This document shows, piece by piece, positions 1,820-57,703 of a stretch of 64,000 nucleotides of DNA. The stretch's first letter is position 1; each line of letters starts with the position of its first letter. The stretch is taken from positions 1-64,000 of the forward strand of contig VDMD01000082.1 in the NCBI GenBank assembly GCA_007026445.1. Direction: 5' to 3'. This DNA is from Schizophyllum amplum (Eukaryota > Basidiomycota > Agaricomycetes > Agaricales > Schizophyllaceae). A program made the position numbers and the translations under genes. The notes below the pieces were generated by a model. That model saw only the letters and a list, made by a program, of their open reading frames with translations. It was not told the DNA's origin and did not search any database.

Positions 1820-4800
1820 CTACTCGCGTGCGAGATCGAAGCGGTCGCAAACAAAGTCCATCAACGCCATGCCGCTGACAGGGAACTGGGTCGCGTCGGG
1901 GTCAGACACCCATGCGGCCATGCCTTTGGCGTCATCCCAGTGGTGCCCCCGCTCGCCGCCGAGGTCGAACCTGGCCATGGCTTCGGAATACAGGTCTCGG
2001 GACACATGTCGGATGGCCCAAAGCATGGGCAGGATGAGGTTTCGATGAGCGTGCGGGGTATCCGAGCCAGTGTAAGGCGGGTGAAGGGTGTCGGAGCCCA
2101 TGGCAGGAAAGTGGCAGGTGTAGCACGGACCAGGAGTTTTCGACCGGTCGTAGTGGACGTTCTTGCGCACCAGGAAAAATGCTTTCTTCTCCGGTTCGGT
2201 GAGGTTCGGGCAATGGTTGGGATTGTGATGCAAGTCAGAGACCCGCTTCCCGCGCGCATCACTGAGAAGCTGGCAGACGAAGCAGTAACCGCAAGTGTCT
2301 TCGGTCATCTTGAGAAGCGCGGCGTAGCGGGCGAGCTCGTCGGCCTGAGTGCCGAGACGCTCGAGCGTGATCGCCTCGGAAGCCTCTTGCGCAGCACCGA
2401 AGCGTGAGACAAGCAGCTCCTGGAGCTCGGCCTGCGAGCGAACATCGGGCATGTAGTCCGAAGGCACGAGAGGCTGGAGGGGTGGCGGATTCATCTCGTC
2501 GATCGCGTACCGCTCGTTGCGACTCCGTTCCGACAGGTCCATATCTTTCTCACCTGGGATGAAAGGTCAGAAAAAAAAAAAAAGTGGACAAGAGAAACAG
2601 CGGCGGGAAACGCACACTGGACGCAAAACATGCACCGCTGGCAGTCGCGAACCTGAAGGCACGTCTTGCCGACGCCATCATTGAACAGGCCGAGGGCATA
2701 ACGAATGCAGCGCTCTGGGCTGCGGACGTCCATCCCTGGTGTGTCGTAGACAATGCGCCGAATAACGTCGGAGCCACTGATGTCCTTGATGTCTTGCGGC
2801 TGACGCGAGTCGGGCATGGTGCGGAAGGGGAAAATGGCTGCGAGAGCGTAACGACCGTCGCGGCCCGCTCTGCCGCTCTCCTGGATGTAGTCGATGGCGT
2901 TGTAGGGCGTGAAGGCGTGGAGAACGAAGCGGACGTGCGAGTAGTCGTTGCCGGCCGACAGAGCGTTGGTGGTGACGATACCCCGATTCTGGCCGGATGT
3001 CCAGCGTTTGTATATATCCGTCTGCATCTTCGCGGTCATCTTCCGACCTTTCGCTTCACTGAGTCCGTGGAAGAGCTCGATGCCGAGGAGGGCGGCGAGC
3101 TCCTGGCCGGCATCGATGGAAGACACAAAGATCATGTACCGATCCTCTGGTTCAGTGAGGAGCTTGTAGAGGTCCTTGATAGGGCGCACAAGGTCTGCAA
3201 ACTTTTCGAAATGCGGACGGACATCGTAAGCGATCTCCCTGCGAATGCTGAGACCGCGGATCATCAGCGGGTTCTGGACCGCAAACCGCTCGGTAAACCA
3301 AGGGACGGAAGAGGGCGGGATAGTGGCGGACATGAGAACGAGGGGACAGGGAGCGAAGCGCAGCTCGTGAACTTTCTTAAGGCAGGCGCGAAAGTTTTGG
3401 CTGAGGACCAGATGGATCTCGTCAACGATAATGCGGGTGATGACGGCCCCCTTGCTCTGGAGCGACTGGACGGCCAAACGCCAGTGATGCTGCTCTGCGA
3501 CATCGACAGAGACGAGGACGATCCGGACGAGGCCAGTAAGCGCGCTCTTGCCGCCTGTCTCGAATGCTTCGAAGGGGACGTGCATGGCCTCCAGGCGACG
3601 CTTCCAGTCAGCGAACAGAGCCCTGAGCGGTATGAGGATCACGGTGATGCCGGTTTCAACGTAGGAAGAGAGAATGGCGATGAGAGATTTGCCGGCGGCC
3701 GTCCTCAGCGAGATGAACACGTCACGATCCAAGCGAAGCAGGGCGATAACGGCGGCTCGCTGCTCGACACAGGTCCAGACGGCGGTAACGCACACAAGGA
3801 GCATGCGAACCCAGTGGATCATGTCGTTTGGGGAAATGGAAGGGGAGCGGGGGTAGGGCTGGTCGAACATGCACTCCAGGGTAGGCGGGACAGGAAGGAC
3901 TGCAGAAGGAAATGAGGGTAACGGATATGCCGTGAAGAGGAGCACGTACAGAGCACGGGCTTGTAGGGGGAAAGCGCAGTCGACCGCGGGAGCCCGACCC
4001 CGGAGGAAGCTGAGAGTTCGACAACGGGAGAGGGGGGACGATCGAACGGGTGAACGGAGGAGGATTGCGTGGACTGTCGAGGGGCGTACACGGGTGGCGG
4101 CGACTGCGACGATGGCTCCGAGTCAAAGGGGTGGATGGACGAGGATGGCGGGGGCGCAGGCGAAGGCGGCACTAGGTAGAGGTGAGCGCTGTCGCAAATG
4201 GACGCAGGAGAAAGGCACACCTGAGCTTATGGACTCCATGGACACGTCTGAGCGGGCGCGAAGGCGGGGTGGGTTCTTCCAGTTGAGCGGACGGAGAGGG
4301 CGATCAGCGGAAGGAGAGCCATCTGGTGTAAAACATGCATAAGCATCACATCGACACGCAAGGCCGTGGAAGCGATTACCAATGCCTGTGGAATGCCAAG
4401 AGGGGGAAAACGGGACCTCTAAGGCGCCGAAGTGAGTGGAGGGAGATAATCGGGGGGCGTAACGAGCGCACCTGGAAGGGAGAACAGCCCATCATCCGTA
4501 CGTGACGCGTGCGAGGCGAAAACGTCTTGCTCATCTGAATGATGTCAGGGTCGCATCAGGGGATAGGCGAGGGGAACAGACCGTGGGGAGGGGTCGACAA
4601 CGGCGACAGCGACGTCCCTGCAGACAAGCGTGAGCGACAAACACTAGATACGGGCACAAAGAGAAGCACCGGACGCAGCAGAGTGACTCTGACGAGAAGG
4701 CGTCGCCGGGAAGGACGGCGGAGCGGGAGACTTGGCCGCCGCAGAAGCTTTCGGTCTGTACGTATAGATCGCGGGACTGGGTGGCTGGACGGGAGCGTGC

Positions 4801-25072: not shown

Positions 25073-25459
25073 ATGTCTGCCAGTCTAGTGAGAGAGGACG
25101 TTTGCGCCGAGTGCGGGAAGAGCAAGAACGCGAAAGACGCTCGCCAGGTGAGCTTCGGGGCCGCTGGTACTGGGCAACGAGCTGACGTGAGGAACACGAA
25201 TGTGAAGTGGCAAGAGACATGCAGGAAGCTGGAAAGGATCAATCAAGAGCTGGTGGAGAGCAACAATCGCATGCAGGAAGAGCTCGAGTGGATGCGGCTG
25301 CAGTACGAGACGGACACTGACGAGGGGGATCCAACTGGCATGGATACAGATGACGAAGAAAACGCAGTGGCCGACGCCGACGGCGGAGAGGAGAACAAGG
25401 TGAAGGCAGCAGAGGAGGACGTCGAGGAGCACGAGATGAGCGACGGCGAGGTCGAGTAG
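25073..25459 (+). CDS. S1: CxxC mini-protein with coiled coil and acidic tail
   Basis: First member of the small-gene array. The ATG at 25073 is preceded by a leader (GCGCCTCATAAACC) shared with S3. The N-terminus is MSASLVREDVCAECGKS, so the CxxC lies about ten residues in rather than at position 2. A candidate 60-nt intron (25148-25207) is a multiple of three, so the frame is open with or without splicing (128 or 108 aa). The second part is a coiled coil (CRKLERINQELVESNNRMQ) and a long Asp/Glu tail. It is probably a metal-binding, self-associating acidic protein; the function is unknown. Confidence 0.6.
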   Translation: MSASLVREDVCAECGKSKNAKDARQVSFGAAGTGQRADVRNTNVKWQETCRKLERINQELVESNNRMQEELEWMRLQYETDTDEGDPTGMDTDDEENAVADADGGEENKVKAAEEDVEEHEMSDGEVE

Positions 25460-25630
25460 GAAGGCGTTCGGCGCGTGGCAGGGCAGGACGCGTGGGAAAA
25501 TGCCAAGGGGGGATAGGCACTGAATATGGAAGGAGGACGGATAACAATCAGTAATGGATCCCGGAAGCGTCGAGAAGACAGGCACGGATTTGGTGCAGCG
25601 CGCAAAAGCCTTGTGCGGCATGTGTATCGC

Positions 25631-25700
25631 GAAAATTCAAAGTCCCGCTGTCAAAACAGAGCTCGAGAACGTTTTGAGTGCGGGACTCTGAAATTTAGAA
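25631..25700. repeat. Foldback (MITE-like) element, copy 1
   Basis: Arms AAAGTCCCGC and GCGGGACTCTG face each other around a centre containing TCAAAAC ... GTTTTGA. The same layout recurs at 33.92 and 34.18 kb. It lies in the spacer between S1 and S2, which otherwise shows nothing. Confidence 0.65.
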
Positions 25701-25877
25701 ATTGTGGCGGACACCGGCTGCCATGACTAAGAAGGATTGAGTTGAGGGATAAGCGGGTGATGGTCATGCCCGAAGTGGAAAACGGATAGCGGTGACAATG
25801 TGCGTACAAACAAATGCACACTCCGGGGCAAAGGCTCGTGCTTCCTGCATCCATCACGTCGGCCGACTAAAACGAGC

Positions 25878-26274
25878 ATGTGCGAAATGTGTACATCAAA
25901 GGCCTGCCCGGTCTACGAGCTGCAGAAGAAGGTCATCATGCTAGGAATGGTGAGCAGCCACAGGTGCACAGACGCTATGGGCTGACGAGCGTGTGTGGCA
26001 GACTTACGGCGAGCTTGTTCGCGCATGCGAGGAAGAAGAGGAGCTCTGGAAGAAGGCGTCGGCCAAGATAGTGATGCTGAAAAAGAGTCGGACGCGATGG
26101 GGGGACATATACACAGACATGTTCAACGAAGGCGACAATACCGAAAAAAAGGTGGAGGAGGCAATGCGCGCGGAAGGCGCATTGGAGGAGAGCGAAGAAG
26201 AGGAGTTGTCAACCGCGGCTGAAGGAATAGACAGGGTGGAGAGCAAGGGTGAGGATGTTCAGAGGGACAGTTAG
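25878..26274 (+). CDS. S2: MCxxC mini-protein
   Basis: Exon 1 is 25878-25949 (24 codons, MCEMCTSKACPVYELQ...). The 52-nt intron 25950-26001 has a GTGAGC donor and GGCAG acceptor in phase 0. Exon 2 is 26002-26274 (TYGELVRACEEEEELWKK). The product is 114 aa: a Cys triad C-x2-C-x4-C at the extreme N-terminus, a charged helix and a Glu-rich tail. Its exon 2 start matches that of S6 (TYAELWEEY). Three Cys alone would need a fourth ligand or a partner to hold zinc, which suggests dimerisation through the metal. That is an inference. Confidence 0.65.
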
Positions 26275-26415
26275 ATTAGCGGACCTCACAGTGCCGGGGA
26301 GGTAGCAAAGGAAATTTCATATGCTGTGAAGCGGACGGTGAGAGTTCTCAGAGATGTGCCTTAGACCCATCGGGGAACTGCAATCTGCCTCCCACGACCA
26401 TCGCGCCTCATAACC

Positions 26416-26783
26416 ATGTGCAAGAACTGCAACACAGAAGGCTGTATCATCCGCGCGTGGATAACTGAAGCGGCCCTAAAAAGAATTGTGAGCCGCTGAG
26501 GCCCGAGCTGAACGATAAACCTGACTGGCAAGGCGGAGAGCGAGATAGAGCCGTGGGACGAGGAGATAACTGAGGAGGACGCGGTGGCGGAGGAGTACAG
26601 CGACCAGACACATTTAACGGTGCGACTCAATAACCTGGTGGGTAGCTAGCCCAAAGTGCTGATGCAGGAGCAGGAGAAGGAGAGCAAGGAGGGGGTTGAT
26701 GACTGGAGCGAGGAGGTCTCGGACGCTGAGAGTGAAGCCGAGGTGGCTCGCATGCTTTGCACGAACGGCACCGAGGGAAAAGA
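26416..26783 (+). pseudogene. S3: MCxxC mini-gene with an in-frame stop
   Basis: Exon 1 is 26416-26487 (24 codons, MCKNCNTEGCIIRAW...), with a GTGAGC donor at 26488. The second exon is homologous to that of S5, but where S5 reads NLVGTYPRL, S3 reads NLVGS and then a TAG. After this stop the frame continues with S5-like sequence (EVARMLCTNGTEGKEA). So S3 is either recently inactivated or makes a shortened protein of about 70-75 aa without the acidic tail. It shares its 5' leader with S1 and S5. Confidence 0.6.
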
Positions 26784-27080
26784 AGCGTAGAGAAGTGTAG
26801 AAGGAACTGAGCTGGCAGGTCGGGAACATTGTATATCAATGCAAAGCGCAACTTGGGTTATCCGTCACGATCGGCTGGAGAAGTGGAAGCGCGCTACGCA
26901 GCCATGGCACCGAGCACGAGGAGGAGGGGTAGGCCGTACGGACTGGAGAAATAAACAAAAAGCGTGTTGACCGCATTACGTAAGGCTGGCATGCAAAGGA
27001 AATGAAAGGCGTTCGCGGGGCATCAGGCTTACCTCTTACCATCATCATCGCAAGTAAACGGTACGGCAGCAACTGCAGGA

Positions 27081-27345
27081 ATGTGCCAGCTCTGTAACAA
27101 GAAATCATGCGAGATGGCACGATTCATAGGACAAGATGTGACATTGGAGGTGCGAGGGCGCCGGGTGACCATGGACGGGACGCTAACACGTTGAGCAGGA
27201 ATACGAAACAATGGAGGGGAAGTGGCGCAAAATGCGGGCTAACAGGAAGAAGCGACAGGAGCAGGAGAGCGACCTGCTGGACGAGATTGAGTATTACAAG
27301 AAGATGGTTAGGCGGGGGATAAGCGTGAAGAGGGAAGCGGAATAG
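27081..27345 (+). CDS. S4: short MCxxC mini-protein (71 aa)
   Basis: Exon 1 is 27081-27149 (23 codons, MCQLCNKKSCEMARF...), intron 27150-27198 (49 nt, branch GCTAAC, acceptor AGCAG), exon 2 27199-27345 (EYETMEGKWRKMRANRKK...). The second exon is basic and helical and lacks the acidic tail of its neighbours. The Cys triad and the intron position fit the family exactly. Confidence 0.65.
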
Positions 27346-27690
27346 GAGTGAGTGAGCAACCATGACAGTGGTGTATAGGACAGGTCTGACAACAGAGGAA
27401 AAGGATCCAGCTCACGTATACAAGACGTTACAGTACAAGCAGTACTTGACAACAGAGGGAACGGAGGACTCGCTTGTACACATAGAACAGATGCGTATGA
27501 AGTCGAGGAGCGAGTACACACCGATGAGAGTCGTGAGACTGGTCAAGCATGTGCCTGCCGCTGCGCGTCGGGACGTACCTGCGGCACTGCGGGGGCTTCT
27601 GACTGCTGGTCCTGAACGTCGTCCTACAACGCGAATGCGAAAGAGCAATTCGGCAGGGGCTCTTGATCGCCACAGGCGCATTTGGGCAGA

Positions 27691-27773
27691 GAGGAGACGA
27701 CGAGTTGACAACCGCGGCTGAAGGGATCAAGACGGTGGAGAACAAGGATCAGAATGTCCAGAGGGACAGATAG
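27691..27773 (+). pseudogene. Remnant of an S2-like 3' end
   Basis: About 80 bp match the end of S2 (LSTAAEGIDRVESK ... VQRDS in S2; LTTAAEGIKTVENK ... VQRDR here). The following spacer also resembles that after S2. No matching exon 1 is present. S2-S3 and this remnant plus S5 therefore look like two copies of an ancestral two-gene unit. The stretch 27346-27690 shows no other gene. Confidence 0.6.
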
Positions 27774-27906
27774 CTTGGCGGGGCATCCACTGCCTGGGAC
27801 GTGGCGTAGGAATTCGCGTAAGGAGTGGGGTGGGTCGTGGGACATTTGAGAGGCGTCCCTTTTGGAAAGTGCAACTTGCTTTCCACCAACATATTGGCCC
27901 ATAACC

Positions 27907-28302
27907 ATGTGCAACGTATGCGACAGCGAAGGCTGCAACCTTCGCGCGCTATTAATGGAAGCGGTACAGACAAGGATGGTGAGCTGCTGATGGGCGGGCT
28001 GGACGATGCACCTCGCTAACAAGGTGTAGACCGACATAGACGTGTGGGAGGACGATACAGAGGAAAGAAAGGCGGCGATAGAGAGATACAGAGAGCACGA
28101 ACGCTTAATGGTGCGTGTCAGTAACCTGGTGGGGACCTACCCAAGATTGCTCACGCTGGAGCAGGAAAAGCAGCAGGAGGGGGAGAACGATGAGGGGGCG
28201 GAAAGTGAAGATTATCAGAGCGAAGAGGATGGGGCGGCCGACAGTGAAGAGGAGGTGGCTCGCATGCTTGGCGCAAACAGCACCGATGGAAAGAAGGCGT
28301 AG
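27907..28302 (+). CDS. S5: MCxxC mini-protein with acidic tail
   Basis: Exon 1 is 27907-27978 (24 codons, MCNVCDSEGCNLRAL...), intron 27979-28029 (51 nt, branch CGCTAAC, acceptor GTGTAG), exon 2 28030-28302 (TDIDVWEDDTEERKAAIER...). The product is 114 aa. It is the intact relative of S3. The C-terminal half is rich in Glu/Asp and ends VARMLGANSTDGKKA. No family is recognised outside the array. Confidence 0.65.
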
Positions 28303-28732
28303 AGAACTCTAGAAGGAACGGAGAGCGAGAAGCGCAACTGGTGCTAGAACGTGCTCATCAACGTGATCAACAGCTGGAACCCAACCACACCACCTGCGGG
28401 AACGCATGGGGAGACCAGAACGTAAAGAATCACGCGGATGCCGGCCCCGCGCTAGATGGAGCGCGCGCAGCCCTGCGTCAACGGTGGGTAGCAAGCGAGC
28501 AGGCAGGCGTGCGTATGGAGCAAACAACGCTTGACCTGCGGCGAGTAAACGAGCTGGGAGCAGTGATCAATTTAGCAAAGAGAAGCTATGTGCCACGTGA
28601 GGATGGTGATGGCGAGTGATGGCGAGTGATGGCGAGTGATGGCGAGTGATGGGCGGTGATGAATGACGGATCGGGACAGTAACCCCGGTTAGATACAATA
28701 GGTTGCATCAAACGGTCATCGTGTACGGCGGC
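28303..28732. other. Spacer between S5 and S6 with a 10-bp tandem repeat
   Basis: A 10-bp unit (ggcgagtgat) is repeated four times at 28611-28650, flanked by decayed copies. A short plus-strand frame before it (28341-28619) has no family features. Nothing else is recognised. Confidence 0.6.
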
Positions 28733-29073
28733 ATGTGCGAAATTTGCATCTTTTCCAACTGCACAGCGAGCGAGTTGTTGAGGGAGGTGCTCCGCACGGG
28801 CAAGGTGAGGGTCGTTACAACTAGAAGGAGAGATGACGCATCTGACAGGACGAGACCTACGCCGAGCTCTGGGAGGAATACAAAACAGAGCTGGCCGCGC
28901 TGGACAAAGTGTACCGCGCAAAAACCATGCTGGACCTGAGGATCAAGAACCTGGCAGAACTTTGCCCAGAAGCACTTGAAATGGACGAGGAGGAGAATGG
29001 ACGGCAGTTGACCGCAGAGGAGGCGGTGGGGATGACAGGAGGTGTGGAGAACAAGCAGAGCGCAAGGTCGTAA
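28733..29073 (+). CDS. S6: MCxxC mini-protein
   Basis: Exon 1 is 28733-28804 (24 codons, MCEICIFSNCTASELL...). The intron from 28805 ends at 28848 (CAG) or 28854 (GAG); both keep frame. Exon 2 runs to 29073 and contains TYAELWEEYKTELAALDK, similar to S2. The product is about 98 aa, mostly one predicted helix with an acidic patch. The exon 1 length and phase match the other members. Confidence 0.62.
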
Positions 29074-29207
29074 AGTGTGACCGAAGCAGTGGAGGGCATG
29101 CGCCTCACAAGTGACTCTAATTAGTAGGGGCTGGAAACAAATTTAAATGTGGAGCCGGGAGTGAACTTGCTGTCAACGCCCATCATCAAAATCAGAGACG
29201 ATTGGCG

Positions 29208-29495
29208 ATGTGCGGAAAGTGCGACAGGAGCGAGTGCAAGCTCAAAGAAACAATGGAAACAGGCGTACGTCTACAGGTGAGTTGCGCTCGTTACACAACG
29301 CCAGCTGCTTAGTGTGCAAACAAGAACTACATGTACGCCGTGCAAGTGCTGGAAAGGATGCGGCAGGTCAAAGCCGAGCAGGAGAAGGACAACAGGAGCG
29401 CTGAGATCCGTATTGGCATCTACAAGGAGCGCATAAAGGGTCTGCGGAGCGCAAAGAAGGCAGCCATTCAGCCAGACGGGAAGGCGGCAGCGTGA
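29208..29495 (+). CDS. S7: MCxxC mini-protein, basic coil
   Basis: Exon 1 is 29208-29276 (23 codons, MCGKCDRSECKLKET...), intron 29277-29324 (48 nt, GTGAGT donor), exon 2 29325-29495 (NYMYAVQVLERMRQVKAEQ...). The product is 79 aa. The C-terminal exon is a basic helix ending in Ala/Lys-rich sequence, without an acidic tail. Confidence 0.63.
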
Positions 29496-29685
29496 AGGCA
29501 CAGTCGAGGATGATCACAACGCAGACAAAGGAAGGAAGTGTAGAGGTTGAGGTGAGCGCAGACCGTTGGGTGGGTGCGGGGAGGTGGAAAGAGCAGGTGT
29601 ATGGATTGGCTGGATGACAGGACGTGTGGGGTATTTGGGAAGCCCGTATGAGCAAGAAGTCGCTTACACCACCTTGTCTCTTAAG

Positions 29686-29757
29686 CCGGTGGAGAGTAGG
29701 AAGGGGGCTACGGTGCGTGGATGAATTCTCCTTGGCAACGGCGGCTGATTTCGCTGT
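29686..29757 (+). pseudogene. Remnant of an S10-like 3' end
   Basis: About 70 bp, nearly identical to the S10 stop region and downstream sequence (31983-32057). The upstream gene is missing here. It marks a past duplication or unequal exchange in the array. Bases 29758-29956 show nothing more. Confidence 0.65.
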
Positions 29758-29956
29758 AGAATTTAAATGATTCTCAACGACTCGCCTGAATTCGTGCCAC
29801 CAAACGTTGCAGCCAATCCTTCAGCGGGTCTAATGCCACAATGCCATCCGCTCCTTGTGTGTCCAGTATTCTGCATGGCTGCTGTGCTATCCGAGCAAGT
29901 AGCGCACTCTGCGTGTCAACTCATCTCTGAATTAACTGCCCCTCCTCTTTATCCTG

Positions 29957-30339
29957 CTAATTGCCGTCTTTCTTGCCCTCCCCTTCTGTGCCCTTGATGT
30001 GCTCGTCATTGTTGCTGAGGTCTTCTTCACCCTCCTCGTCTTCCTCATCCTCCTCGTCTTCCTCCTCATCCACGTCCTCCAAGGTCTCATCAAACAGGTC
30101 GGGATATCTGGATCGCAGGTCCTTCATAGCCTGACGTACACTACGTATCTCCTCCTCAAGCTGATTGCTGTGCTCGTGTTCTTTGTGCATGGCCTCTTCG
30201 ACAGCGGGGGCGGTCTAGTAAAGAATACTCGTGTCAGACAAGATTTCCTGAACACAATATAGCTTACCATTCCTGACCGAATCATAACCTGCAGATCTTG
30301 ATTGACATCGCATGTCTTACTCCCGCAAATCAAACACAT
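29957..30339 (-). CDS. S8: MCxxC mini-protein, left member of divergent pair 1
   Basis: Exon 1 is 30339-30268 (24 codons, MCLICGSKTCDVNQDLQVM...), intron 30267-30215 (53 nt, GTAAGC donor, CTAG acceptor), exon 2 30214-29957 (TAPAVEEAMHKEHEHSNQL...). The product is 109 aa: Cys triad, helix (LEEEIRSVRQAMKDLRSRYP), then an extremely acidic tail. It is homologous to S11 and S13, and all three are minus-strand partners of a plus-strand gene. It shares a 216-bp promoter region with S9. Confidence 0.7.
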
Positions 30340-30555
30340 TGTGGTGTGTACTGACAAGGTGGAAGAGGATAGCGTGTCCGTGCGCTGAATCCTCGACGGT
30401 AGGAAGAAGCGATCAAAATGATTGCACGTGATAGGTGAAAGCGATTGATGATTCACGAGCAGCTTCCTCACGCCTCAAAGGCTGTCTCCTGCCATCATCA
30501 CCGTTACAAAAACTTCACCGTTTGAGCATAACCACCTCACCTGCTGGTGCACATC
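30340..30555. promoter_or_regulatory. Bidirectional promoter of pair S8/S9
   Basis: 216 bp between two divergent start codons. A CCATCATCACC-type stretch before the plus-strand gene recurs in pair 3. No clear TATA box was seen. Confidence 0.5.
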
Positions 30556-30859
30556 ATGTGCAAACCTTGTCATTCGGAGGATTGCGCGCTCGCCCAGGCG
30601 TACCCGCTCCGAAGCGATTATGTGCGTTAATTGCACATTGTTTTTGTAGAGACCTCACCTGTCTCAGTGTCGTGGATATGAAATGAAATTGCTTGCGCGT
30701 GCAACAAAGGCCAGAAAGGGCAAGGAAGAGGAACTGAAACACATGCGAGCGGACCTCGACGAAATGGAGGAGATGTTGGCGGGATGGAAGGAAGCAAAAC
30801 AGCGTGGACAGTCAATGAAGGAGTGGAAGGCCGCTTGGTGGGCTGACATATCGGAATGA
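30556..30859 (+). CDS. S9: MCxxC mini-protein, right member of divergent pair 1
   Basis: Exon 1 is 30556-30621 (22 codons, MCKPCHSEDCALAQAYP...), intron 30622-30667 (46 nt), exon 2 30668-30859. The product is 85 aa with no acidic tail. It ends in WKEAKQRGQSMKEWKAAWW. S10 (WEIAKAQGKTISEWNEEW) and S14 (WESARRNGITTTQWKAS) share this W-x2-A-x3-G ... W pattern, defining a sub-family distinct from the minus-strand partners. Confidence 0.68.
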
Positions 30860-31071
30860 GAATCTAGCTACTTGTCCTCTTAATGCATGTATCGCATGTC
30901 TCGCACAACACCAACATAGAAGCGCTGCATATTGCGGCATAGGCAAGCACCAAACAGATTTGATCTATATACCTTAATCCTTGCACATTTGTTGATTATA
31001 GTCCTCACGCTCGCATGCGTAGTGGCGGTCGCAGACGTTTACCTGCCGGCACAAGTGAGAATACGAGGGAT

Positions 31072-31095
31072 AAGGGCCGGACTTTGACTTTTTAA
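31072..31095. repeat. Fragment of the foldback element (copy 4)
   Basis: GGACTTTGACTTTT, followed by sequence like that after copy 3 (34225-34290), directly adjoins the 59-bp repeats. The spacer 30860-31071 shows nothing else. Confidence 0.5.
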
Positions 31096-31272
31096 TTGGC
31101 AAGGCCCAAAGCGGTGTCCCGCGGACGACGCGGGATGCCAAAAAAGGTAATACATTGGCGAGGCCCAAAGCGGTGTCCCGCAGACGACGCGGGATGCCAA
31201 AAAAGGTAATACATTGGCGAGGCCCAAAGCGGTGTCCCGCGGACGACGCGGGATGCCAAAAAAGGTAATACA
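31096..31272. repeat. 59-bp tandem repeat, three copies
   Basis: Units start at 31096, 31155 and 31214 and are nearly identical. Each contains a small palindrome (TCCCGC ... GCGGGA). The array ends 13 bp before the S11 stop codon. Confidence 0.9.
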
Positions 31273-31285
31273 TTGATGCTGGGCC

Positions 31286-31583
31286 TCACTGCTCTTCGTC
31301 TACATCCCCCTCGGCGGCATCGCGATCCAGACAGTGGAACAGCACCTCCCAGTACATGCCCTCAAGGTCATCCACAGCCTTCTGGGCATCCAGCAAGTCG
31401 CGCTGAACGTGCTTGAGGTGCTCGCGCTTGGCGATGATGGCTTCCCCTATATTGAAGGCGCTCTGGAAACGGTGATGAGAACCGTAAGAAGGACGACAAG
31501 AGAGTCTCTACCGTGCCCAGCCGGATCATTGCGCATAGTCCTTGGTTGATATTGCAGGTCGATTGACCGCAGATGTTGCACAT
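31286..31583 (-). CDS. S11: MCxxC mini-protein, left member of divergent pair 2
   Basis: Exon 1 is 31583-31512 (24 codons, MCNICGQSTCNINQGLCAM...), intron 31511-31463 (49 nt, GTAGAG donor, TCCAG acceptor), exon 2 31462-31286 (SAFNIGEAIIAKREHLKHV...). The product is 82 aa with a short acidic end (GDVDEEQ). It is homologous to S8 and S13. The donor is weaker than in other members but the phase and length are right. Confidence 0.66.
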
Positions 31584-31697
31584 GACGAAAGCGTACCAGA
31601 TGAAAGAGGGGGAAGAGAGGCGTGCGATCGGCGCATATTGGCAATCAGCGCAGACAGATGTGCCGCGCACCACGTTTTGCCTTCCACAACCATTAGT
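31584..31697. promoter_or_regulatory. Bidirectional promoter of pair S11/S10
   Basis: Only 114 bp separate the two divergent ATGs, so both genes must share control elements. Confidence 0.5.
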
Positions 31698-31998
31698 ATG
31701 TGCACCGCTTGCGCCGAACCGGACTGCCAGCTGGCAGAAGCGTATCCGATGCATGCCGCCTTTGTGCGTGTCCTGCGCATGCAACAGCGAACATTAATCT
31801 GACCTGGGCTAGATGCAACAGGTGCAGGAGCTGCTGCACCTAGACGAGCAATTGCGCCTCACGCAGGAGCAGTGGGAGGTGGAGAAAAGCAGGCTTGCGA
31901 GTCTGAGGAAGGCCACTGTGTCTTGGGAGATAGCCAAAGCGCAGGGAAAAACAATAAGCGAGTGGAACGAGGAGTGGCTGAAAGCCGGTGGAGAGTAG
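31698..31998 (+). CDS. S10: MCxxC mini-protein, right member of divergent pair 2
   Basis: Exon 1 is 31698-31763 (22 codons, MCTACAEPDCQLAEAYP...), intron 31764-31812 (49 nt, GTGCGT donor, GGCTAG acceptor), exon 2 31813-31998 (MQQVQELLHLDEQLRL...). The product is 83 aa, a coiled coil ending AQGKTISEWNEEWLKAGGE. Same sub-family as S9 and S14. Its 3' end was copied to 29.69 kb. Confidence 0.68.
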
Positions 31999-32174
31999 GA
32001 AGGGGGCTACGGTGCGTGGATGAATTCTCCTGGGCAACGGCGGCTGATTTTGGTGTAGAGGGCTACAGGGTACAAGATTACGTGACAGTACATGGTCTTC
32101 CGCATGCGACTGCTGCTCGCGGCGTTGTGCGAGCCAGCGCTAGGATGACATGAGAACCAATGTTGTTCGCGGCG

Positions 32175-32494
32175 CTACTCCTCCTCATCAGTTGTGGCAC
32201 TCTCCGCCAGCTCCTCCGCATCCCTCGCATCCGTGTCCTCATTGTCGTAGTACGCTCTGGGATACGTGACGTGGAGGTCGTCAATCAGACGCTTCATCGC
32301 CCTCATGTTTTCCTCGAGCTGTTTCATACGCTGGCGTTCTTTTTCCAGGGATTCAGCGACGATGGCAGGGGTCTGGGGAAAGCTGTCAGCCTTCTGCGGG
32401 TAGTGCGCAGGTCATCTCCCACCCTTTCAGACCGTATCATGAACTTGAGCAGTCGGATGACTTCGCACTTGCGATCCGTGCAAATGACGCACAT
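32175..32494 (-). CDS. S13: MCxxC mini-protein, left member of divergent pair 3
   Basis: Exon 1 is 32494-32423 (24 codons, MCVICTDRKCEVIRLLKFM...), intron 32422-32373 (50 nt, GTGGGA donor, CCCAG acceptor), exon 2 32372-32175 (TPAIVAESLEKERQRMKQL...). The product is 89 aa with a helix (MKRLIDDLHVTYPRAYY) and an acidic tail. It aligns with S8 over its whole length. Confidence 0.68.
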
Positions 32495-32622
32495 GGTGGG
32501 ATGAGCTATGGTGATGATGGGATGAGAAAGAAAGGGAAGACGTTAAGATAAAGGGTTAAATAATCGCGCTTCTGCTTTCTCACGCATTGCAGGTTGCTTC
32601 CAACCACCATCACCTTTCGCAT
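32495..32622. promoter_or_regulatory. Bidirectional promoter of pair S13/S14
   Basis: 128 bp between divergent ATGs, with a CCACCATCACC stretch before S14 as in pair 1. Confidence 0.5.
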
Positions 32623-33036
32623 ATGTGTCAAACCTGCGCTGCCCCGGACTGTGCGCTGTCGCAAGCGTACAACCACCCTGATCGAAAGTCGTTTGTGCGT
32701 GCGGTCCACCTTGAGGGGTTCGCAAGCTTACACGTCCCAGGATGTTGACATCGAGCAACTGCGCCGTGCAATGAAGGAGAGAAGGAAGATGGAGATCGAG
32801 CGGAGGAGGTTGAGTCAGGACATGCATGACGCGCTGAGGACATCGAACGAATGGGAGTCCGCTAGGCGCAACGGCATCACCACAACCCAGTGGAAGGCCT
32901 CGCGGGCTGAGACGAAGGTCAGAGACAGTGATCCTATGGTGCGCACGTGAACACTGCTGCTCATCGGTGGACTAACACGGGGCAGGACGGCGCGCAGGCA
33001 TCAACCTCGACCTCTACCTTGGCTTCGACGGCGTAA
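32623..33036 (+). CDS. S14: MCxxC mini-protein, right member of divergent pair 3
   Basis: Exon 1 is 32623-32694 (24 codons, MCQTCAAPDCALSQAYN...), intron 32695-32740 (46 nt), exon 2 from 32741 (DVDIEQLRRAMKERRKM...). Exon 2 can stop at 32950 (93 aa). Alternatively a second intron 32939-32985 (GTGCGC, GGACTAACAC, GGCAG) leads to a third exon ending at 33036 (DGAQASTSTSTLASTA). Same sub-family as S9 and S10. It is the last gene of the array. Confidence 0.66.
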
Positions 33037-35240: not shown

Positions 35241-36215
35241 AGGAGTACCTCACGATAAAGTCTAGCCGGGCAGCCGCCATCGCCATGATGGACGCATGGC
35301 GAGAACGGGTGGCGAACTTGGAGGACGTGGAGGAGCGTTCCGCAGGCGCAGGGGAGCCCAATGAACAGGGATCGGGCGGGGAGTCCGCGATGGCGCACGA
35401 TGAGAAGGAGCTTACAGCTGGCGATGTCGACACTCCGCGGCGGGCGAAGGTATCGTACGGAAAGAAAAGGGCCGCAAGGGCATCCACGGTGCGTCACCCG
35501 CACACTGGTCCCAGCTGTCGATCTGATGAGCACCTGGCTAGACGGCACATGAGACCACGCCGACGGTGAGGCGCACGAGGGCCGGGTGCGTGAGACGTTG
35601 ATCTGTAGGGATGAGGCGAGACACGCGCTAAACGCTTGCAGGCTTTCCAAGGCGGCCGGCAGAGGCCAGGATCGGTCCCCCGTCAAGGCTGCGACCGACA
35701 AGGAGCTGGACGAGGAGGAGGAGGAGGAGGAGGAGGAGGAGGAGGTGGGGCTTGTTGTTGGCTTGGGTATGCAGACGGCGACCGTGATTCGAGCGACAAA
35801 CCGCTGACCTTTGGACGCAGGGAATGAGACGGTCACAGAATCCGACGAGGAGCCAGACGTGCAGGCGATCAGCACGTCTCAGGAGCCCAACGACAGCGCG
35901 GATCACTGCAACGCCTGTGGGAATTCTCTGAGCGCCCGCACATCGACCGAGGGGATCAATCTGCTTCGCCACGAGCTCGAGAAGGGGTACGAGCGACTGA
36001 ACAGCAAGCTGGACATGCTGGAGGAAACCCTCCGGTGGCTGGAGGACAGCGTGGACGGGCAGGTGGGGAGCGATGTGACGGCGCCTCCACTTGGTGCGGC
36101 CCTCTACAGTGGCCTTGACGGGGGCCGATCGTCCTCTCGGGCCTCGCGCTCAGGCGCTCGGGCTCATCCTCATCTCGCCAAGCGCCCGCGCACGGAGTCG
36201 GAGGACAACGAGTAG
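35241..36215 (+). pseudogene. R3a': 5'-truncated copy of R3a
   Basis: Same sequence as R3a but missing the start codon and first ~50 residues, which lie outside the duplicated segment. The remaining exons are intact: the Glu-repeat tract at about 35709-35742, CNACGNSL and the C-terminal coiled coil ending TESEDNE at 36215. It could be expressed only if a new start is supplied upstream. Confidence 0.75.
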
Positions 36216-37366
36216 GCGGGCGTTCGGACACGCTCAGGATGCTTGGGTCGGTCGTTTGTAGCGTGCGGTGGACGCAGACCTCCCTTGCGCCTTTCCTTTC
36301 TTGTTTTGTTCGGTTACATTTGTTTCTTTATTACATTTCGCTTAACGAGAAAGACGAATGCAAACGTGTGGCGCAACGCTTGGCGCGCCAGCGCATAGGG
36401 AACAATGATGTCGAACACGTGCGTCCGACGTCAGATTTCGGCGCTGCGCTGTGCCGAAAGGAACCACAGGGATTCGCACGGGCCTCGGGGCAGCCTCGTG
36501 GCCTGGGATGAACGCGCGTCTTGTGTCCTAACCATCATTCGTCGGCTTGCAGACTCGAGCGACAGCGCCATGCAGCAGTCCAACTTCCTGAAAAAGTTGC
36601 CGGAAGACAAAAGGCAGGCCTATGCGGACTTAATTAACGATTGGGTAGCAAAGGGGCCCGCCCGGCGGAGCGTGGCTCAGGCTAAGCACCTCAAGAAGCA
36701 AACCGGTGACTTTTGGGAATTTACGTCCGACGAGTACGGGAAGGAGTACACCGCCAGGTTCAAAGAGCAGATTAACACCGTCATCGAGGACGGTGACCAG
36801 CCCGCTGTGATAGTGAAGAAGGCGACTCGTGCGGTGAAAAAGGTGTGTAGGGCGCCGGCCAATGACCAGACGGCGAGCTGACAGGTGATGGGCAGGAGCC
36901 GAAGAAAGGAAAGGAGTCACGAAGCGGTCGCGCAGGCGATAGCAGTCGCACGCGCGATAGCAGTCGCACGGGCGCACGGTGCGTGTCCTGCTTGGATCGG
37001 CGGCAGCCGACGTGTGCGCTCAACTACCAGCAGTTTACAGGGCTCGGACGCTAAACGTTCGGACGAGGGCGAGAGAGGTGAGGACGCGATGGCCTACAAC
37101 GCGCAATCTATAAGCTGATGGGTGCTCCAGGGAGCACCGCGAGGGCATCCGTAGCTTCGCCCGCATCCGGGAGGTCGACAGGGGGTAGGGACGCACTCGC
37201 CGTCACCAAGTACGCTGCCGCGAGCAAGACGGACAAAGCCCGGATTCCTACGTCGCTCACCGGCTCCAGCGCCAAACCGGGCACGGCGTCAGAGGAGGTC
37301 GCGAAGCTCTTGAACGTCCTGGTCACCTCCTTCAACAAGTGGGGGACTTTGATCGCTGAAAGCAGG
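35241..37366 (+). repeat. Left arm of 2,126-bp inverted repeat
   Basis: Every position p here matches 84063 minus p on the other strand, without indels. I found four mismatches (two near 35464-35466, one near 35924, one near 36244), so identity is about 99.8%. The left boundary cuts gene R3a after YLTIKSS and the right boundary cuts R3b after LIAES. This arm is therefore probably the derived copy, since the right arm keeps natural gene ends on both sides. Confidence 0.93.
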
Positions 37367-42821: not shown

Positions 42822-44847
42822 GGCCGTCGTCAGCTCATAAACGCCTGCAGTGCTCTCTGTGCCCGCCAGCCTGAAGTGCATGTTTGATCGACCTTACGCC
42901 GACTTTGCGTCCATACCGCTCGAGGACGCCATCCGCGTTATTCGCGACCTTCTGGACCGCCCCACCGCGACCTGGACGTGCGTGGAGCAGCGGGCGGCCG
43001 TTATCGCGCTCCTTCGCCTCGATAGCGACATCTTCGTCTGCCTTCGAACGGCTGCAGGCAAGTCGCTCGTAGCGGTCATACCTTCCTATTACGAAAAAGG
43101 TATCACGGTCATCATGATACCCCTCAGGGCGCTGGTGGCGGACTGGAAGCGCCGCCTGGATGATATGAAGGTCCCGTACGAATGGTTCCCCCCTGGAGGC
43201 AAGGGCACGCTCACTGGCAGCACCAAGATCGTCCTGGTCTCCGTGGACGTCGCCCGTGGGCATTACTGGGCTTCCGCCATCCAGCACTTGCAGAACCTGG
43301 GTTGCGTCATCGCACGGATCGTTGTCGACGAGGTCCATCTCGCGCTCACGCACAGCTTTCGCGAATCTCTCCAGCACGTTCACCAGCTCCGATTCGCTCC
43401 TTGCCCGCTCGTCCTCATGTCCGCCACCATGCCGCCGGCCTCGATCCCGTGGTTTACCGAGACGTTCGTCGCCCGGGACCCCCTCGTCCTCCGTGGTTTG
43501 AGCATCCGCAAGGAGCTCGCGTACGAGCGAATGTGTCCGTTCAAAGCAACCGCCGATCTGGTGGCTCCCATCCAGCGCCTGCAGGCCGAGCTGCTTGTCG
43601 AGCCGCAGGACCGCTACATGATCTTTGTGACCTCCATCGCTATCGGACAAGATCTCGCCCAGCTCCTCGGCATTGAGCTCTTCCACGGCCTCAGCGACGA
43701 GCCAGACCGGCTCATGGATGACGAGGCGCAGAAGGCGATATACACGCGTTGGACCTCGGGCGCGCTCAAGGGCATCGTGACAACCAGCGCGCTCTCCGCG
43801 GGCAATGACTACCCGCACGTGCGCTTGGTCGTCCACGCGTGCACGCCCTACAACGCGCTCGACTACCTGCAGGAGAGCGGGCGAGGGGGCCGTGACGGGC
43901 GCCCCGCTCGATCCCTCATCTTTCCATACCGAACCATGCCGCGGTCCACCGAGAGCGAGGAGATCCAGGCCATCACAGGCGTGCACGTCATGCGGAAGAT
44001 CGTCTACGAGCTGCCCGACCGCGATGCCACGGACAACGAGCGCTGCATCCGCCACGCCCTTGGAGCCTTCAACGACGGTGTCGGCAAAAGGTGCGATCAG
44101 GTCCGCGACTGTCAGCTCTGCAGCTTTTGCAAGCAGCGTCCGTCCTCGACGTCGCCCTCTGTGGAAACTCTCTACGAGGACAACCATCCTCCGCTCCAGC
44201 CTCTGCTCCCGTCCACTCACATGCCCAATGCGCGAACGAAAACGGAGCTGGGTGACCTTCTGGTCGCTCGCTTCGGCGACGCGCACCGCGCGTCCCAGGC
44301 CGTCACGCTCGAGGGACTCGGCACTCGCGCGAACGACATCACCCGCTACGACAACTTTCTCACCTTTGCAGGCAGCGCCTGCGGTCACTGCTTGATTCTG
44401 GCCCTCCTCAAGCTCACGGACAATCGGCAGCCGTCGAGCATGGAACACGACCCTCAAATGTGCCCCACGATTTCCGAGGATGACAAGACCGAGTTTTTCA
44501 AGATTCGCGGCAGCGTCAACTACAACCGCGCCAGGAAGCCAGGCCCTTGCTTCACCTGTCACTTTCCGTCCATGGGCCGGGACACCCTCCACCCAAAGTT
44601 CGTGCCGCGGGACGAAAAGCACAAGCATCGCAACCTGGTTCTGCCCATGCTCTGGGCCGTCAGATACGCATCCGAGGACTTGTACGCTCGAGCTGTCTCT
44701 CACCTCAACCTCGTCGGGCGCAAGCACCACTGGAACGACCCGCAGGGCATGGCCGCATGGGTCGGCGACCACGACGCAACCACCTACCCGGTCAGCGGCC
44801 TAGCTTTAATTGATTTTGTTTGTAAATACTTTGATATCGGCCTGTGA
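38781..44847 (+). CDS. Hel2: OrsD-like zinc finger / tyrosine recombinase-like / RecQ-type helicase fusion
   Basis: Second full copy of the Hel architecture. Exons 1-3 are 38781-38810, 38870-38926 and 38995-39737. Exon 3 is the OrsD-like domain (LICGCEHVVDMG ... YGCSACPFNRIQ). The exon from 39796 is the recombinase-like part, with PARGTELTSMM, SAYRHIYIGFARK, QAGHSASMGRAHYGL and a coiled coil. Pro/Ser-rich linker exons (about 41.77-42.77 kb) are uncertain. An intron ending in a CT repeat precedes the helicase exon 42850-44847: RTAAGKS, DEVH, SAT, SAGNDY, QESGRGGRDGR, then CQLCSFC, and the Cys/His C-terminal domain (ACGHC ... GPCFTCHFP) ending FDIGL. The helicase and C-terminal domain are one exon here but split by an intron in Hel1. 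Clear but not close paralogues, so this is an old duplication. No catalytic residue appears lost. Confidence 0.78.
42768..42819. repeat. (CT)n microsatellite in a Hel2 intron
   Basis: About 26 CT units form a polypyrimidine tract just before the acceptor of the helicase region. The length is probably polymorphic. Confidence 0.9.
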
Positions 44848-46592: not shown

Positions 46593-47493
46593 ATGTCTAT
46601 ATCGTCCCCACTCGTCAAGCGTGCATCAACGACACCACCGCCTCTGCCGCCGCTCACCCCTTCGCCACCGACCTGCACGTCCGCCTCCATGCGCGCCCTG
46701 CTTTCAGCGATCAAAGTCCCCCACTTGTTGAAGGAGGTGACCAGGACGTTCAAGAGCTTCGCGACCTCCTCTGACGCCGTGCCCGGTTTGGCGCTGGAGC
46801 CGGTGAGCGACGTAGGAATCCGGGCTTTGTCCGTCTTGCTCGCGGCAGCGTACTTGGTGACGGCGAGTGCGTCCCTACCCCCTGTCGACCTCCCGGATGC
46901 GGGCGAAGCTACGGATGCCCTCGCGGTGCTCCCTGGAGCACCCATCAGCTTATAGATTGCGCGTTGTAGGCCATCGCGTCCTCACCTCTCTCGCCCTCGT
47001 CCGAACGTTTAGCGTCCGAGCCCTGTAAACTGCTGGTAGTTGAGCGCACACGTCGGCTGCCGCCGATCCAAGCAGGACACGCACCGTGCGCCCGTGCGAC
47101 TGCTATCGCGCGTGCGACTGCTATCGCCTGCGCGACCGCTTCGTGACTCCTTTCCTTTCTTCGGCTCCTGCCCATCACCTGTCAGCTCGCCGTCTGGTCA
47201 TTGGCCGGCGCCCTACACACCTTTTTCACCGCACGAGTCGCCTTCTTCACTATCACAGCGGGCTGGTCACCGTCCTCGATGACGGTGTTAATCTGCTCTT
47301 TGAACCTGGCGGTGTACTCCTTCCCGTACTCGTCGGACGTAAATTCCCAAAAGTCACCGGTTTGCTTCTTGAGGTGCTTAGCCTGAGCCACGCTCCGCCG
47401 GGCGGGCCCCTTTGCTACCCAATCGTTAATTAAGTCCGCATAGGCCTGCCTTTTGTCTTCCGGCAACTTTTTCAGGAAGTTGGACTGCTGCAT
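46593..47493 (-). CDS. R3b: CxxC-containing regulator-like protein with acidic tail
   Basis: The ATG at 47493 starts MQQSNFLKKLPEDKRQ, a helical block with NDWVAKGP that loosely resembles the DW/WA block of R1, R2 and R4. An intron near 47218-47165 leads to an exon with CVSCLDRRQPTC and LNYQQF, like the second half of the R1/R2 Zn cluster. The frame then meets a stop unless another intron is used. The last exon 46945-46593 (MGAPGSTARAS...) contains LLNVLVTSFNKWG and ends DDIDMD. All but the last part (46593-46696) lies in the inverted repeat. The middle structure is uncertain. Confidence 0.45.
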
Positions 47494-48822
47494 GGCGCTG
47501 TCGCTCGAGTCTGCAAGCCGACGAATGATGGTTAGGACACAAGACGCGCGTTCATCCCAGGCCACGAGGCTGCCCCGAGGCCCGTGCGAATCCCTGTGGT
47601 TCCTTTCGGCACAGCGCAGCGCCGAAATCTGACGTCGGACGCACGTGTTCGACATCATTGTTCCCTATGCGCTGGCGCGCCAAGCGTTGCGCCACACGTT
47701 TGCATTCGTCTTTCTCGTTAAGCGAAATGTAATAAAGAAACAAATGTAACCGAACAAAACAAGAAAGGAAAGGCGCAAGGGAGGTCTGCGTCCACCGCAC
47801 GCTACAAACGACCGACCAAAGCATCCTGAGCGTGTCCGAACGCCCGCCTACTCGTTGTCCTCCGACTCCGTGCGCGGGCGCTTGGCGAGATGAGGATGAG
47901 CCCGAGCGCCTGAGCGCGAGGCCCGAGAGGACGATCGGCCCCCGTCAAGGCCACTGTAGAGGGCCGCACCAAGTGGAGGCGCCGTCACATCGCTCCCCAC
48001 CTGCCCGTCCACGCTGTCCTCCAGCCACCGGAGGGTTTCCTCCAGCATGTCCAGCTTGCTGTTCAGTCGCTCGTACCCCTTCTCGAGCTCGTGGCGAAGC
48101 AGATTGATCCCCTCGGTCGATGTGCGGGCGCTCAGAGAAGTCCCACAGGCGTTGCAGTGATCCGCGCTGTCGTTGGGCTCCTGAGACGTGCTGATCGCCT
48201 GCACGTCTGGCTCCTCGTCGGATTCTGTGACCGTCTCATTCCCTGCGTCCAAAGGTCAGCGGTTTGTCGCTCGAATCACGGTCGCCGTCTGCATACCCAA
48301 GCCAACAACAAGCCCCACCTCCTCCTCCTCCTCCTCCTCCTCCTCCTCCTCGTCCAGCTCCTTGTCGGTCGCAGCCTTGACGGGGGACCGATCCTGGCCT
48401 CTGCCGGCCGCCTTGGAAAGCCTGCAAGCGTTTAGCGCGTGTCTCGCCTCATCCCTACAGATCAACGTCTCACGCACCCGGCCCTCGTGCGCCTCACCGT
48501 CGGCGTGGTCTCATGTGCCGTCTAGCCAGGTGCTCATCAGATCGACAGCTGGGACCAGTGTGCGGGTGACGCACCGTGGATGCCCTTGCGGCCCTTTTCT
48601 TTCCGTACGATATCATCGCCCGCCGCGGAGTGTCGACATCGCCAGCTGTAAGCTCCTTCTCATCGTGCGCCATCGCGGACTCCCCGCCCGATCCCTGTTC
48701 ATTGGGCTCCCCTGCGCCTGCGGAACGCTCCTCCACGTCCTCCAAGTTCGCCACCCGTTCTCGCCATGCGTCCATCATGGCGATGGCGGCTGCCCGGCTA
48801 GACTTTATCGTGAGGTACTCCT
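46697..48822 (-). repeat. Right arm of 2,126-bp inverted repeat
   Basis: Mirror of 35241-37366. The gene R3a continues past its outer end to a normal start codon at 48928, and R3b continues past its inner end to a normal acidic terminus at 46593, so this arm looks like the source copy. The spacer between arms is 9,330 bp and contains Z1, Hel2 and R2. Confidence 0.93.
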
Positions 48823-54573: not shown

Positions 54574-55994
54574 ACGAATGGCACAGAGTCAGGGTCGCTG
54601 TCGCTGTAAATCACGTACTTACCGTTTTTTGCTGTATAGTACGACATCTGCTTGTCTAGAGGCTTGGTTTCCACCAAAGCCGTTGATCTGCAAAGACCGC
54701 TCTCGTGCCTTTGTCCCCGGACCTTGCTGGCCGCCCCCTGCGCCAACACACCGGCGTCAGCACAAAGCAGCCAGCGCGAACTCAGCGAGAGCGGCGCGCT
54801 CGCACGCGATCGGCGCATGCCGTTATACGATCGACCGCCGGCGATCGGCCCGGATCTCCGTGTCTGAACTTTAGATCGCCTGTTGACTTCCCCGGTCATC
54901 GTCGCCCACACTCTCTTCGTGCGCTGCTAGCGAGCGGCTCCTCTGCGCCTGGGAATGTGTTCACTCAAAGCGTCGGCGTTGGCTTGCGGCGTACACGCGG
55001 CGCTCGCTTTCATCCAGGTGCGTTGTGTCATTGTCCCAGTGGCGTTCGTGCTGAGTCACTTTGCAGCCTTGAGAAGAACACCGAGACTGTCGAAACACCG
55101 TAATTGCCCTCGCGGATCGCCATCCCCAGCTGCCTGTCGTGCCAGCCATCGCGGCCGCCGACGGTGGCGCACGAGAGCCCCCGCCATCGTTACCGCATCA
55201 ATTGCCGGCGCCTGTTGCAGATATTCCCCTCCCCCCTGCTGCCTTCTGCCCCTTGTTCCACACGGCGAATACCGTGCACTCTTCCACACACCCGACTGTT
55301 GCCGAATGGGCGCGTGTTTGGCTCCCCACCACGGCGCTCGCATCCGGGACGCGTCGTTCGTCTGAGAACTATATTGCATACCTGACCTTGCTGACTGATC
55401 GGCCAGGCTCTGTTCACACCGTAGATGCTTGCCGTAAGCGCTCGTCTCACCCAGAATGTTCGTATTCCTACAAGTCTCTGTCGTACGCCGGTTCACCTAC
55501 TTTGTTGCGATCCGCTAGTGCTGGCGCGCGATCCCACGCGCGCTTGTCGTCGCTCGGGCGCGGCCTTTGCTCGGCACGTGGGCGCGCGTGCGGAAGACGA
55601 CGTTCGTGAGCTCACATATTCCCATACATCATCATACTAGCACATTGACCGCGGTTTTGTGAGCTCGCGTGATATTCTTGACGCCCGACTCTCGTCCCTC
55701 GGACAACCATCGTTTGTTGACCGTCACCGGGCCCGTGTCGACAAGATCTTGTTTGTGACCCTGCGTTGTTGTGTCGTGCACCTCACTGATGACTTTCTTA
55801 TGTTCAGCAGCTACCTTTGGCCGTCCCCCAGTCCCAGCGTTCATCTAGTGCTCGCTCCTCTTTCGACCACCTCCGGGGGCGCATCGGCAGGGTCATATGT
55901 GTAAGCCCGGGATTCCGTGTCGTACGCCCCACTAATCGCTTCAGCTGGTACGGGTTGATTATCGTCGAGCTCCGGTATCGCGGATCAGACATGC
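54574..55994. other. Gene-poor stretch before the satellite
   Basis: Short frames on both strands without matching exon structure or paralogues. A possible minus-strand exon (YYTAKNGKYVIYSDSDPDS, near 54.6 kb) could not be tied to a gene. Nothing else is recognised. Confidence 0.35.
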
Positions 55995-57115: not shown

Positions 57116-57703
57116 TCGCCGCGAGACAGAGCGGTAGAAAGAAAGCCTGTCGGCCGCGCGGCAGTATAGCCTTTGCACACGGCGGAATACCCCTGGGGTC
57201 AGCAGCAACATTTTGCTATTTCAAGTTGGTCTAGTCGTGGCGGATAGATGGGCTGTGTTCCGGTAACCGTGTCAGGTAGTACAGGTCCGACTCGCGAGGG
57301 CTCGACCGGCAACCAGACTGGATTTCTCTAGACTGCTCGATAGATACAACGTAGACTAGTTCCGTCGCGGACAGCGCGAAATAGGTGATATTGTATAGAG
57401 CGAATATGCGGTCATTCACGCACGTAGCTACTGGTTACGGGTCCCGAATCGTGCTCCCGCGCCGTCCCGCGCTGCGCGGCCACAGCGCGCGGCTCCCAAT
57501 ACCGCACCCGCCCTTGACTGGCATGCACTGTATGAGTGCTCGATGCGTCGCGCCCGCTGCTGGGCCCGCTCAAGGCCGCTCTCGTCGGCCATCACAATTG
57601 GAGTCAATGCCAGTATATTCAGGGAAATATGTCTCGGACGTACCACGTCGCTACTGGCGGCCAGATTCGTGCCCATATCCAGGGACGAGATCACTGTGCA
57701 AGG

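Follow-up and report, generated by a model that had tools for sequence, protein, structure and literature searches.

A six-class family of tiny cysteine-triad genes in recurring cassettes of Schizophyllum amplum

An array of tiny two-exon genes was analyzed in a 64,000-nucleotide (nt) stretch of Schizophyllum amplum, a wood-decay mushroom. The stretch, called the window here, covers positions 1-64000 of the 110,227-base contig C291, in an assembly of 49.65 Mb and 309 contigs. The genes encode mini-proteins starting with Met-Cys-x2-Cys-x4-Cys (MCxxCx4C). They are six classes, T1 to T6, not loose variants, and the family is under purifying selection in old and recent comparisons, as gene averages. 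The classes fall into two branches, A and B. From the sequences, it is tentatively proposed, with a probability of about 0.42, that helical chains of A and B pair and hold metal with the cysteines of both.

Six gene classes in a recurring cassette

In the window, the strict start pattern ATGTGYN6TGYN12TGY (ATG-TGY-N6-TGY-N12-TGY) was found 12 times, i.e., nine on the + strand and three on the - strand, all within 25,878-32,652. Only 0.04 occurrences were expected by chance from dinucleotide shuffles, and the predicted array of tiny MCxxCx4C genes is thus real. The number of genes was lowered from 14 (S1-S14) to 13, i.e., S1 and 12 MCxxCx4C genes. In the whole genome, the pattern occurred 167 times, versus 68 for the reversed control pattern. 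Gene models were made with GT-AG intron borders and spliced in silico, and classes were assigned by exon-2 similarity. The genes of the array, with lengths in amino acids (aa), are as follows.

25073..25459, + strand: S1 (T0), start MSA, no full Cys triad, helical exon 2, acidic tail
25878..26274, + strand: T1 (branch A), exons 25878-25949 and 26002-26274, 114 aa, exactly database protein P0002
26416..26649, + strand: T2-like (branch A), exon 1 26416-26487, exon 2 from about 26539, early stop
27081..27345, + strand: T4 (branch B), exons 27081-27149 and 27199-27345, 71 aa
27907..28302, + strand: T2 (branch A), exons 27907-27978 and 28030-28302, 114 aa
28733..29073, + strand: T2 (branch A), exons 28733-28804 and 28855-29073, 96 aa
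29208..29495, + strand: T3 (branch B), exons 29208-29276 and 29325-29495, 79 aa
29957..30339, - strand: T5 of pair I (branch A), exon 1 30339-30268, exon 2 30214-29957, 109 aa, long acidic tail
30556..30859, + strand: T6 of pair I (branch B), exons 30556-30621 and 30668-30859, 85 aa
31286..31583, - strand: T5 of pair II (branch A), exon 1 31583-31512, exon 2 31462-31286, 82 aa
31698..31998, + strand: T6 of pair II (branch B), exons 31698-31763 and 31813-31998, 83 aa, equal to database protein P0011
32175..32494, - strand: T5 of pair III (branch A), exon 1 32494-32423, exon 2 32372-32175, 89 aa
32623..33036, + strand: T6 of pair III (branch B), exons 32623-32694, 32741-32938 and 32986-33036, three-exon form after database protein P0003

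The border between exons 1 and 2 of S1 is uncertain because its intron is also open in frame. The T2-like gene at 26,416 has an early stop in comparison with its sister at 27,907, and is probably damaged. In pair I, T5 (30339) and T6 (30556) stand head to head with 216 nt between their starts; the starts are 114 nt apart in pair II and 128 nt apart in pair III. Between T4 and the next T2, a fragment at 27674-27780 resembles the tail of the T1 gene (26,175 onwards), a remnant of duplication within the array.

For the tree, charges and exon lengths, 34 curated genes were picked from several arrays by the Cys motif. The predicted two-exon layout with constant phase-0 splicing was supported by the models of these genes, with an exon 1 of 22-24 codons and introns of 43-57 nt. 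In the models, all 17 branch-A genes have an exon 1 of 24 codons; in branch-B genes, its length ranges from 22 to 24. Exon 1 holds the three motif cysteines, i.e., residues 2, 5 and 10, and exon 2 is charged in the spliced models. Intact models give mini-proteins of 69-128 aa.

Twelve database proteins were retrieved and compared with the spliced models. Seven were identical (P0001, P0002, P0007, P0008, P0010, P0011 and P0012). P0003 equals its model over the first 90 residues and has a third exon in addition, P0004 has the same start with a third exon added, and P0009, which starts with MC, looks like a T1-T4 fusion. The 10 database proteins with a Cys start all begin at Met-Cys; in-frame ATG codons further upstream were present in 12 of the 34 curated genes. 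Of the 34 upstream stretches, 8 contain the word CCATCATC, which may be a general start-site feature; 30 shuffles preserving only base composition gave no more than 4.

The window was compared with 12 further stretches on nine contigs, making 13 stretches. A cassette recurred in which T1-T2-T3-T4 run in the same direction, often with T0 before them, followed by one to three head-to-head T5/T6 pairs. Four diverged lineages were distinguished, i.e., alpha, beta, gamma and delta, and all six classes are found in each. The order T1-T2-T3-T4 and then T5/T6 was complete in beta (C243, C164 and C301), gamma (C30) and the first delta set (C275). The alpha array of the window includes every class; it has additional copies of T2, and its T4 precedes T3. 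T1 was not seen in the C249 array. The beta and delta arrays have relatives of S1/T0 upstream of T1; in gamma, no such relative was found. Of the 21 motif-bearing cases, 20 have T5 and T6 head to head, with 114-216 nt between the starts.

In a maximum-likelihood tree of the 34 proteins, T1, T2 and T5 (branch A) were split from T3, T4 and T6 (branch B) with support 100/100. Every class but T4 formed a single group, and the T1, T5 and T6 groups were starred. The same three pair lineages (I, II and III) appear in T5 and in T6, and delta stands next to III in each, but support for some of the forks is weak. Branch A is acidic, save one T2 with a shifted tail, and branch B is less acidic; net charge lies between -1 and +7 in T3 and T4 and from -7 to +13 in T6. 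The often acidic tail that had been predicted for exon 2 holds for T1, T5 and most T2 genes, but T3, T4 and T6 are without such tails.

Cysteine triad, selection and relatives

The invariance of the triad in the 34 curated genes proves little because these genes were chosen by the motif. The 13 stretches were therefore searched with exon 2 only, using queries from motif-bearing genes, and the motif was sought up to 330 nt upstream. Of 97 matches, 83 had the triad motif upstream. The 14 without it were five beta T5 copies, five third-exon repeats of the T6 module, two matches at stretch ends, one gamma T2 copy with a replaced start, and one T0. The original prediction gave the MCxxCx4C start to all genes but S1. 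The start is indeed near-constant, but it is not absolute, since a beta T5 gene lacks the triad. The copies of this pair II gene lie at about 14.65-15.0 kb of L043 (C243), with sisters on C164, C223, C249 and C301, and their exon 2 is open. In the four copies with a readable start it is MSTC, so that one of the three cysteines is kept. Besides Met and Cys, no exon-1 column has a single residue in more than 18 of the 34 genes.

Diversifying selection had been suggested for the sequence outside the triad. Selection was examined by NG86 counts averaged over genes, and the suggestion was not borne out: pN was lower than pS in 89 of 90 within-class pairs between arrays. Much of the apparent divergence arose because six old paralogous classes had been compared as one. 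Synonymous divergence between arrays is often above 1, i.e., near saturation, and in each of the six classes divergence is greatest at third codon positions. Near-identical copies were compared over the first 180 nt in 20 gene groups. They showed 14 non-synonymous and 15 synonymous codon differences at about 2,846 and 754 sites, respectively, a ratio of 0.25. A single T5 gene accounts for five of the 14 non-synonymous differences.

About 5.8 billion proteins were searched with profiles (E up to 1, 5 and 5), and no relatives outside S. amplum were obtained. Because these searches need shared five-residue words and annotated proteins, diverged or unannotated relatives are possible, e.g., in Schizophyllum commune. 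In the 10 window proteins scanned, no Pfam match above the cut-off was obtained. Sequence profiles of the PDB gave weak matches only (best E 0.016 and 0.014), mostly in helical or coiled-coil stretches, and Foldseek with the T6 model gave 0 matches. In viral contigs, 166 pattern matches were obtained for T1 and none was confirmed. No paper on the mini-protein family was found in the literature searched. These results agree with the earlier statement that no described family is known to have such a layout, and the family appears to be undescribed.

The predicted model of T6 is a 46-residue helix between two short helices (pLDDT 86). The helical exon 2 of the original prediction was only partly supported when periodicity was compared with shuffles at the 5% level. 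It held in five of seven T5 genes, but in one of six T2 genes and in none of T3, T4 and T6; T1 was borderline (47-53 of 1000 shuffles).

Proposed pairing of the chains and alternative explanations

In the proposed mechanism, the helices of A and B chains would join them into heterodimers or larger hetero-oligomers. Heteromers are suggested because A and B are deeply split, each lineage has both, and an A gene and a B gene stand head to head as a pair. Pairing would join two N-terminal C-x2-C-x4-C triads, and the cysteines of both chains could then hold metal, most simply zinc. A shared metal site, zinc-hook-like in the original guess, is considered because each chain has three cysteines at its very N-terminus. 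With such a clasp, assembly would be sensitive to metal or redox state. T5 and T6 may be made together from one short two-way promoter, which would keep the partners balanced. Assembly may also be partner-specific within matched sets, as is suggested because the lineages coexist and diverge as such sets. The role is the least certain step; it might be self/non-self or chromosome-end-linked sorting, served by several non-cross-reacting sets. The full proposal is doubtful. It would be a two-sided system of six co-inherited classes, in which a Cys-metal clasp between chains would join only partners that match and belong to the same cassette. Duplication and divergence at mushroom chromosome ends would have given several sets that do not cross-react and could serve nonself recognition.

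The Rad50 zinc hook is a metal site shared by the cysteines of two coiled-coil chains, with CxxC at the apex of the long coiled coil in a large SMC-like ATPase. The mini-protein motif is different, i.e., it has three cysteines and is N-terminal in short proteins without a Pfam match above the cut-off.

Several observations weigh against pairing of A and B chains through a metal clasp. The triad of the beta T5 gene of pair II is missing in five of five copies, and the Cys start is omitted in 2 of 12 database proteins (P0005 and P0006), of which P0006, the T5 of pair II, begins at an internal Met of exon 1. A delta T5 (C275:129414) has no opposing T6. In the second delta set, T3 and T6 were not seen. 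The match of the T5 and T6 trees is expected from linkage alone, and amino-acid composition may make the A/B split look sharper. Charge complementarity of A and B is weak because the charge of T6 is mixed, being negative in five of nine. The predicted model of T1 is poor (pLDDT 60), and helical periodicity exceeds that of shuffles mainly in T5.

The HD1/HD2 genes of mushroom A mating-type loci are head-to-head pairs of two protein classes with several co-diverged pair lineages. T5/T6 is likewise a divergently transcribed pair of two protein classes with several co-diverged lineages. It is conceivable, if rather doubtful, that the genes are a nonself recognition or selfish killer-rescuer set, in which partner-specific chains of different cassettes decide nuclear or spore compatibility and the T5/T6 pairs act in the manner of HD1/HD2. 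The 20 of 21 head-to-head pairs in three co-diverged lineages fit such a set, as do the several diverged sets per genome with synonymous divergence often above 1, the six classes kept in each lineage, and the many near-identical copies. However, no homeodomain or other Pfam domain was obtained above the cut-off in the 10 window proteins scanned, T5 and T6 are part of a six-class cassette present several times per genome, and selection is purifying on average. Different lineages also lie on one contig (C291, C243 and C254), so that they are paralogues and not simple alleles. The same purifying selection, in old and recent comparisons, has already weakened the explanation that short genes were amplified with unstable chromosome ends as passengers and kept without important function. 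One array near a telomere, near-identical copies, some broken copies and the failure of profile searches to find relatives outside S. amplum are consistent with a passenger expansion. But the class order recurs and the Cys triad is kept across very diverged classes, which leaves this explanation quite improbable.

Zn2Cys6 clusters have basic residues between the cysteines for DNA contact, and are zinc clusters with a dimerising helix. The mini-proteins might be miniature gene-expression regulators with half a Zn2Cys6 cluster per chain, whose dimer rebuilds a six-Cys, two-zinc DNA-binding cluster. Two triads make six cysteines and helical dimerisation is plausible. According to PMC7295025, C-x2-C-x4-C is a half-cluster, i.e., the second half, of the Zn2Cys6 domain (PF00172) in some basidiomycetes, and type A clusters are 8 of 66 in Pleurotus ostreatus. 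However, the Zn2Cys6 domain has all six cysteines in one chain, as C-x2-C-x6-C-x5-12-C-x2-C-x6-8-C, versus three per chain in the mini-proteins. The residues between the mini-protein cysteines are neutral to acidic, not basic (mean net charge -0.6; positive in 8 and negative in 18 of 34), and none of the 10 proteins scanned matched in Pfam above the cut-off. This explanation is considered improbable. A sensor role of the N-terminal cysteine was given the least weight and is very improbable. In such a sensor, Met removal would expose Cys2, whose oxidation and arginylation would lead to degradation and so report oxygen or nitric oxide. Cys at position 2 allows Met removal, Met-Cys starts were present in 34 of 34 curated genes, though these were motif-selected, and an arginyltransferase match (ATE_C) is present. 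But the genome gave no match to thiol dioxygenase (PCO_ADO), for which control genomes were silent too, and such a sensor leaves Cys5, Cys10 and the six classes unexplained.

Chromosomal setting and meaning

Genome searches with the T1 and T6 proteins matched at least seven and at least nine contigs, respectively. The family is on at least 10 of 309 contigs, counting the T6 of C275 from the motif search, and neither query matched outside these contigs. Copies of the same lineage share 86-99% identity over kilobases, and identity between lineages is about 67-73%. The copies may in part reflect two haplotypes of a dikaryon, and assembly errors may account for some of the broken ones. On the contig of the window, a gamma-type cassette with at least T1 and T6 was found at C291:102327-105199, in the opposite orientation and about 70 kb from the window array.

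Telomere repeats were found on five contigs (C7, C172, C240, C248 and C275), and among the matches listed only C275 has an array. This array reaches 131,292, about 3 kb from the repeats at 134,173-134,305. Thus, a subtelomeric place was observed directly for one array; for the others, including that of the window, it is inferred.

Two helicase copies were located in the window, outside the cassette.

42841..44844, + strand: helicase open frame with DEAD and Helicase_C domains
1823..4122, - strand: second helicase copy in opposite orientation, two open frames (2494-4122 and 1823-2566)

By resemblance, the helicase is taken to be telomere-linked RecQ-like. Helicase-like units at 1.8-7.6 kb (- strand) and 39.0-44.8 kb (+ strand), about 70% identical, flank the array, and the base-composition skew flips near 37 kb. 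Relatives of the helicase (E up to 1e-20) were found on C30, C164, C172, C223 and C254, and twice on C291; the C172 match ends about 0.45 kb from telomere repeats. Arrays are present on five of the six helicase contigs, and the helicase on five of the 10 array contigs. Telomere-linked RecQ helicases and other fungal subtelomeric families may have a comparable chromosomal setting. RecQ helicases are subtelomeric in Agaricus bisporus var. burnettii, according to PMC7473861. Unlike those genes, the mini-proteins are not helicases.

An inverted repeat of 2,126 nt (35241-37366 and 46697-48822, 99.8% identical) encloses 9.3 kb with a helicase gene. On the evidence of this repeat, a mobile element carrying the array was rejected. 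Its borders show no target-site duplication, and the genome gave no further matching copy of the repeat, so it is probably a recent local inverted duplication.

Other repeats were also seen. A tandem satellite of about 158 nt lies beside pair-I T5/T6 in L045 (C249:232219-233333), L041 (C242:11386-12399) and L039 (C223:2207149-2207586), and on C249 it runs to the contig end. In the window, a 147-nt tandem repeat of about seven copies occupies 55962-57141, and an open frame at 61704-62198 (- strand) with a sub-threshold DUF4218 match is perhaps a transposon gene remnant.

Because six classes are kept in a recurring order under purifying selection, the mini-protein family very likely does something. 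Assembly of fungal chromosome ends is difficult, and small spliced genes are readily overlooked. Since the proteins are short and form head-to-head A/B pairs, metal binding and partner choice are testable with small recombinant proteins. If it is true that partners match within a cassette, the family would represent a new way to several non-cross-reacting protein pairs per genome.

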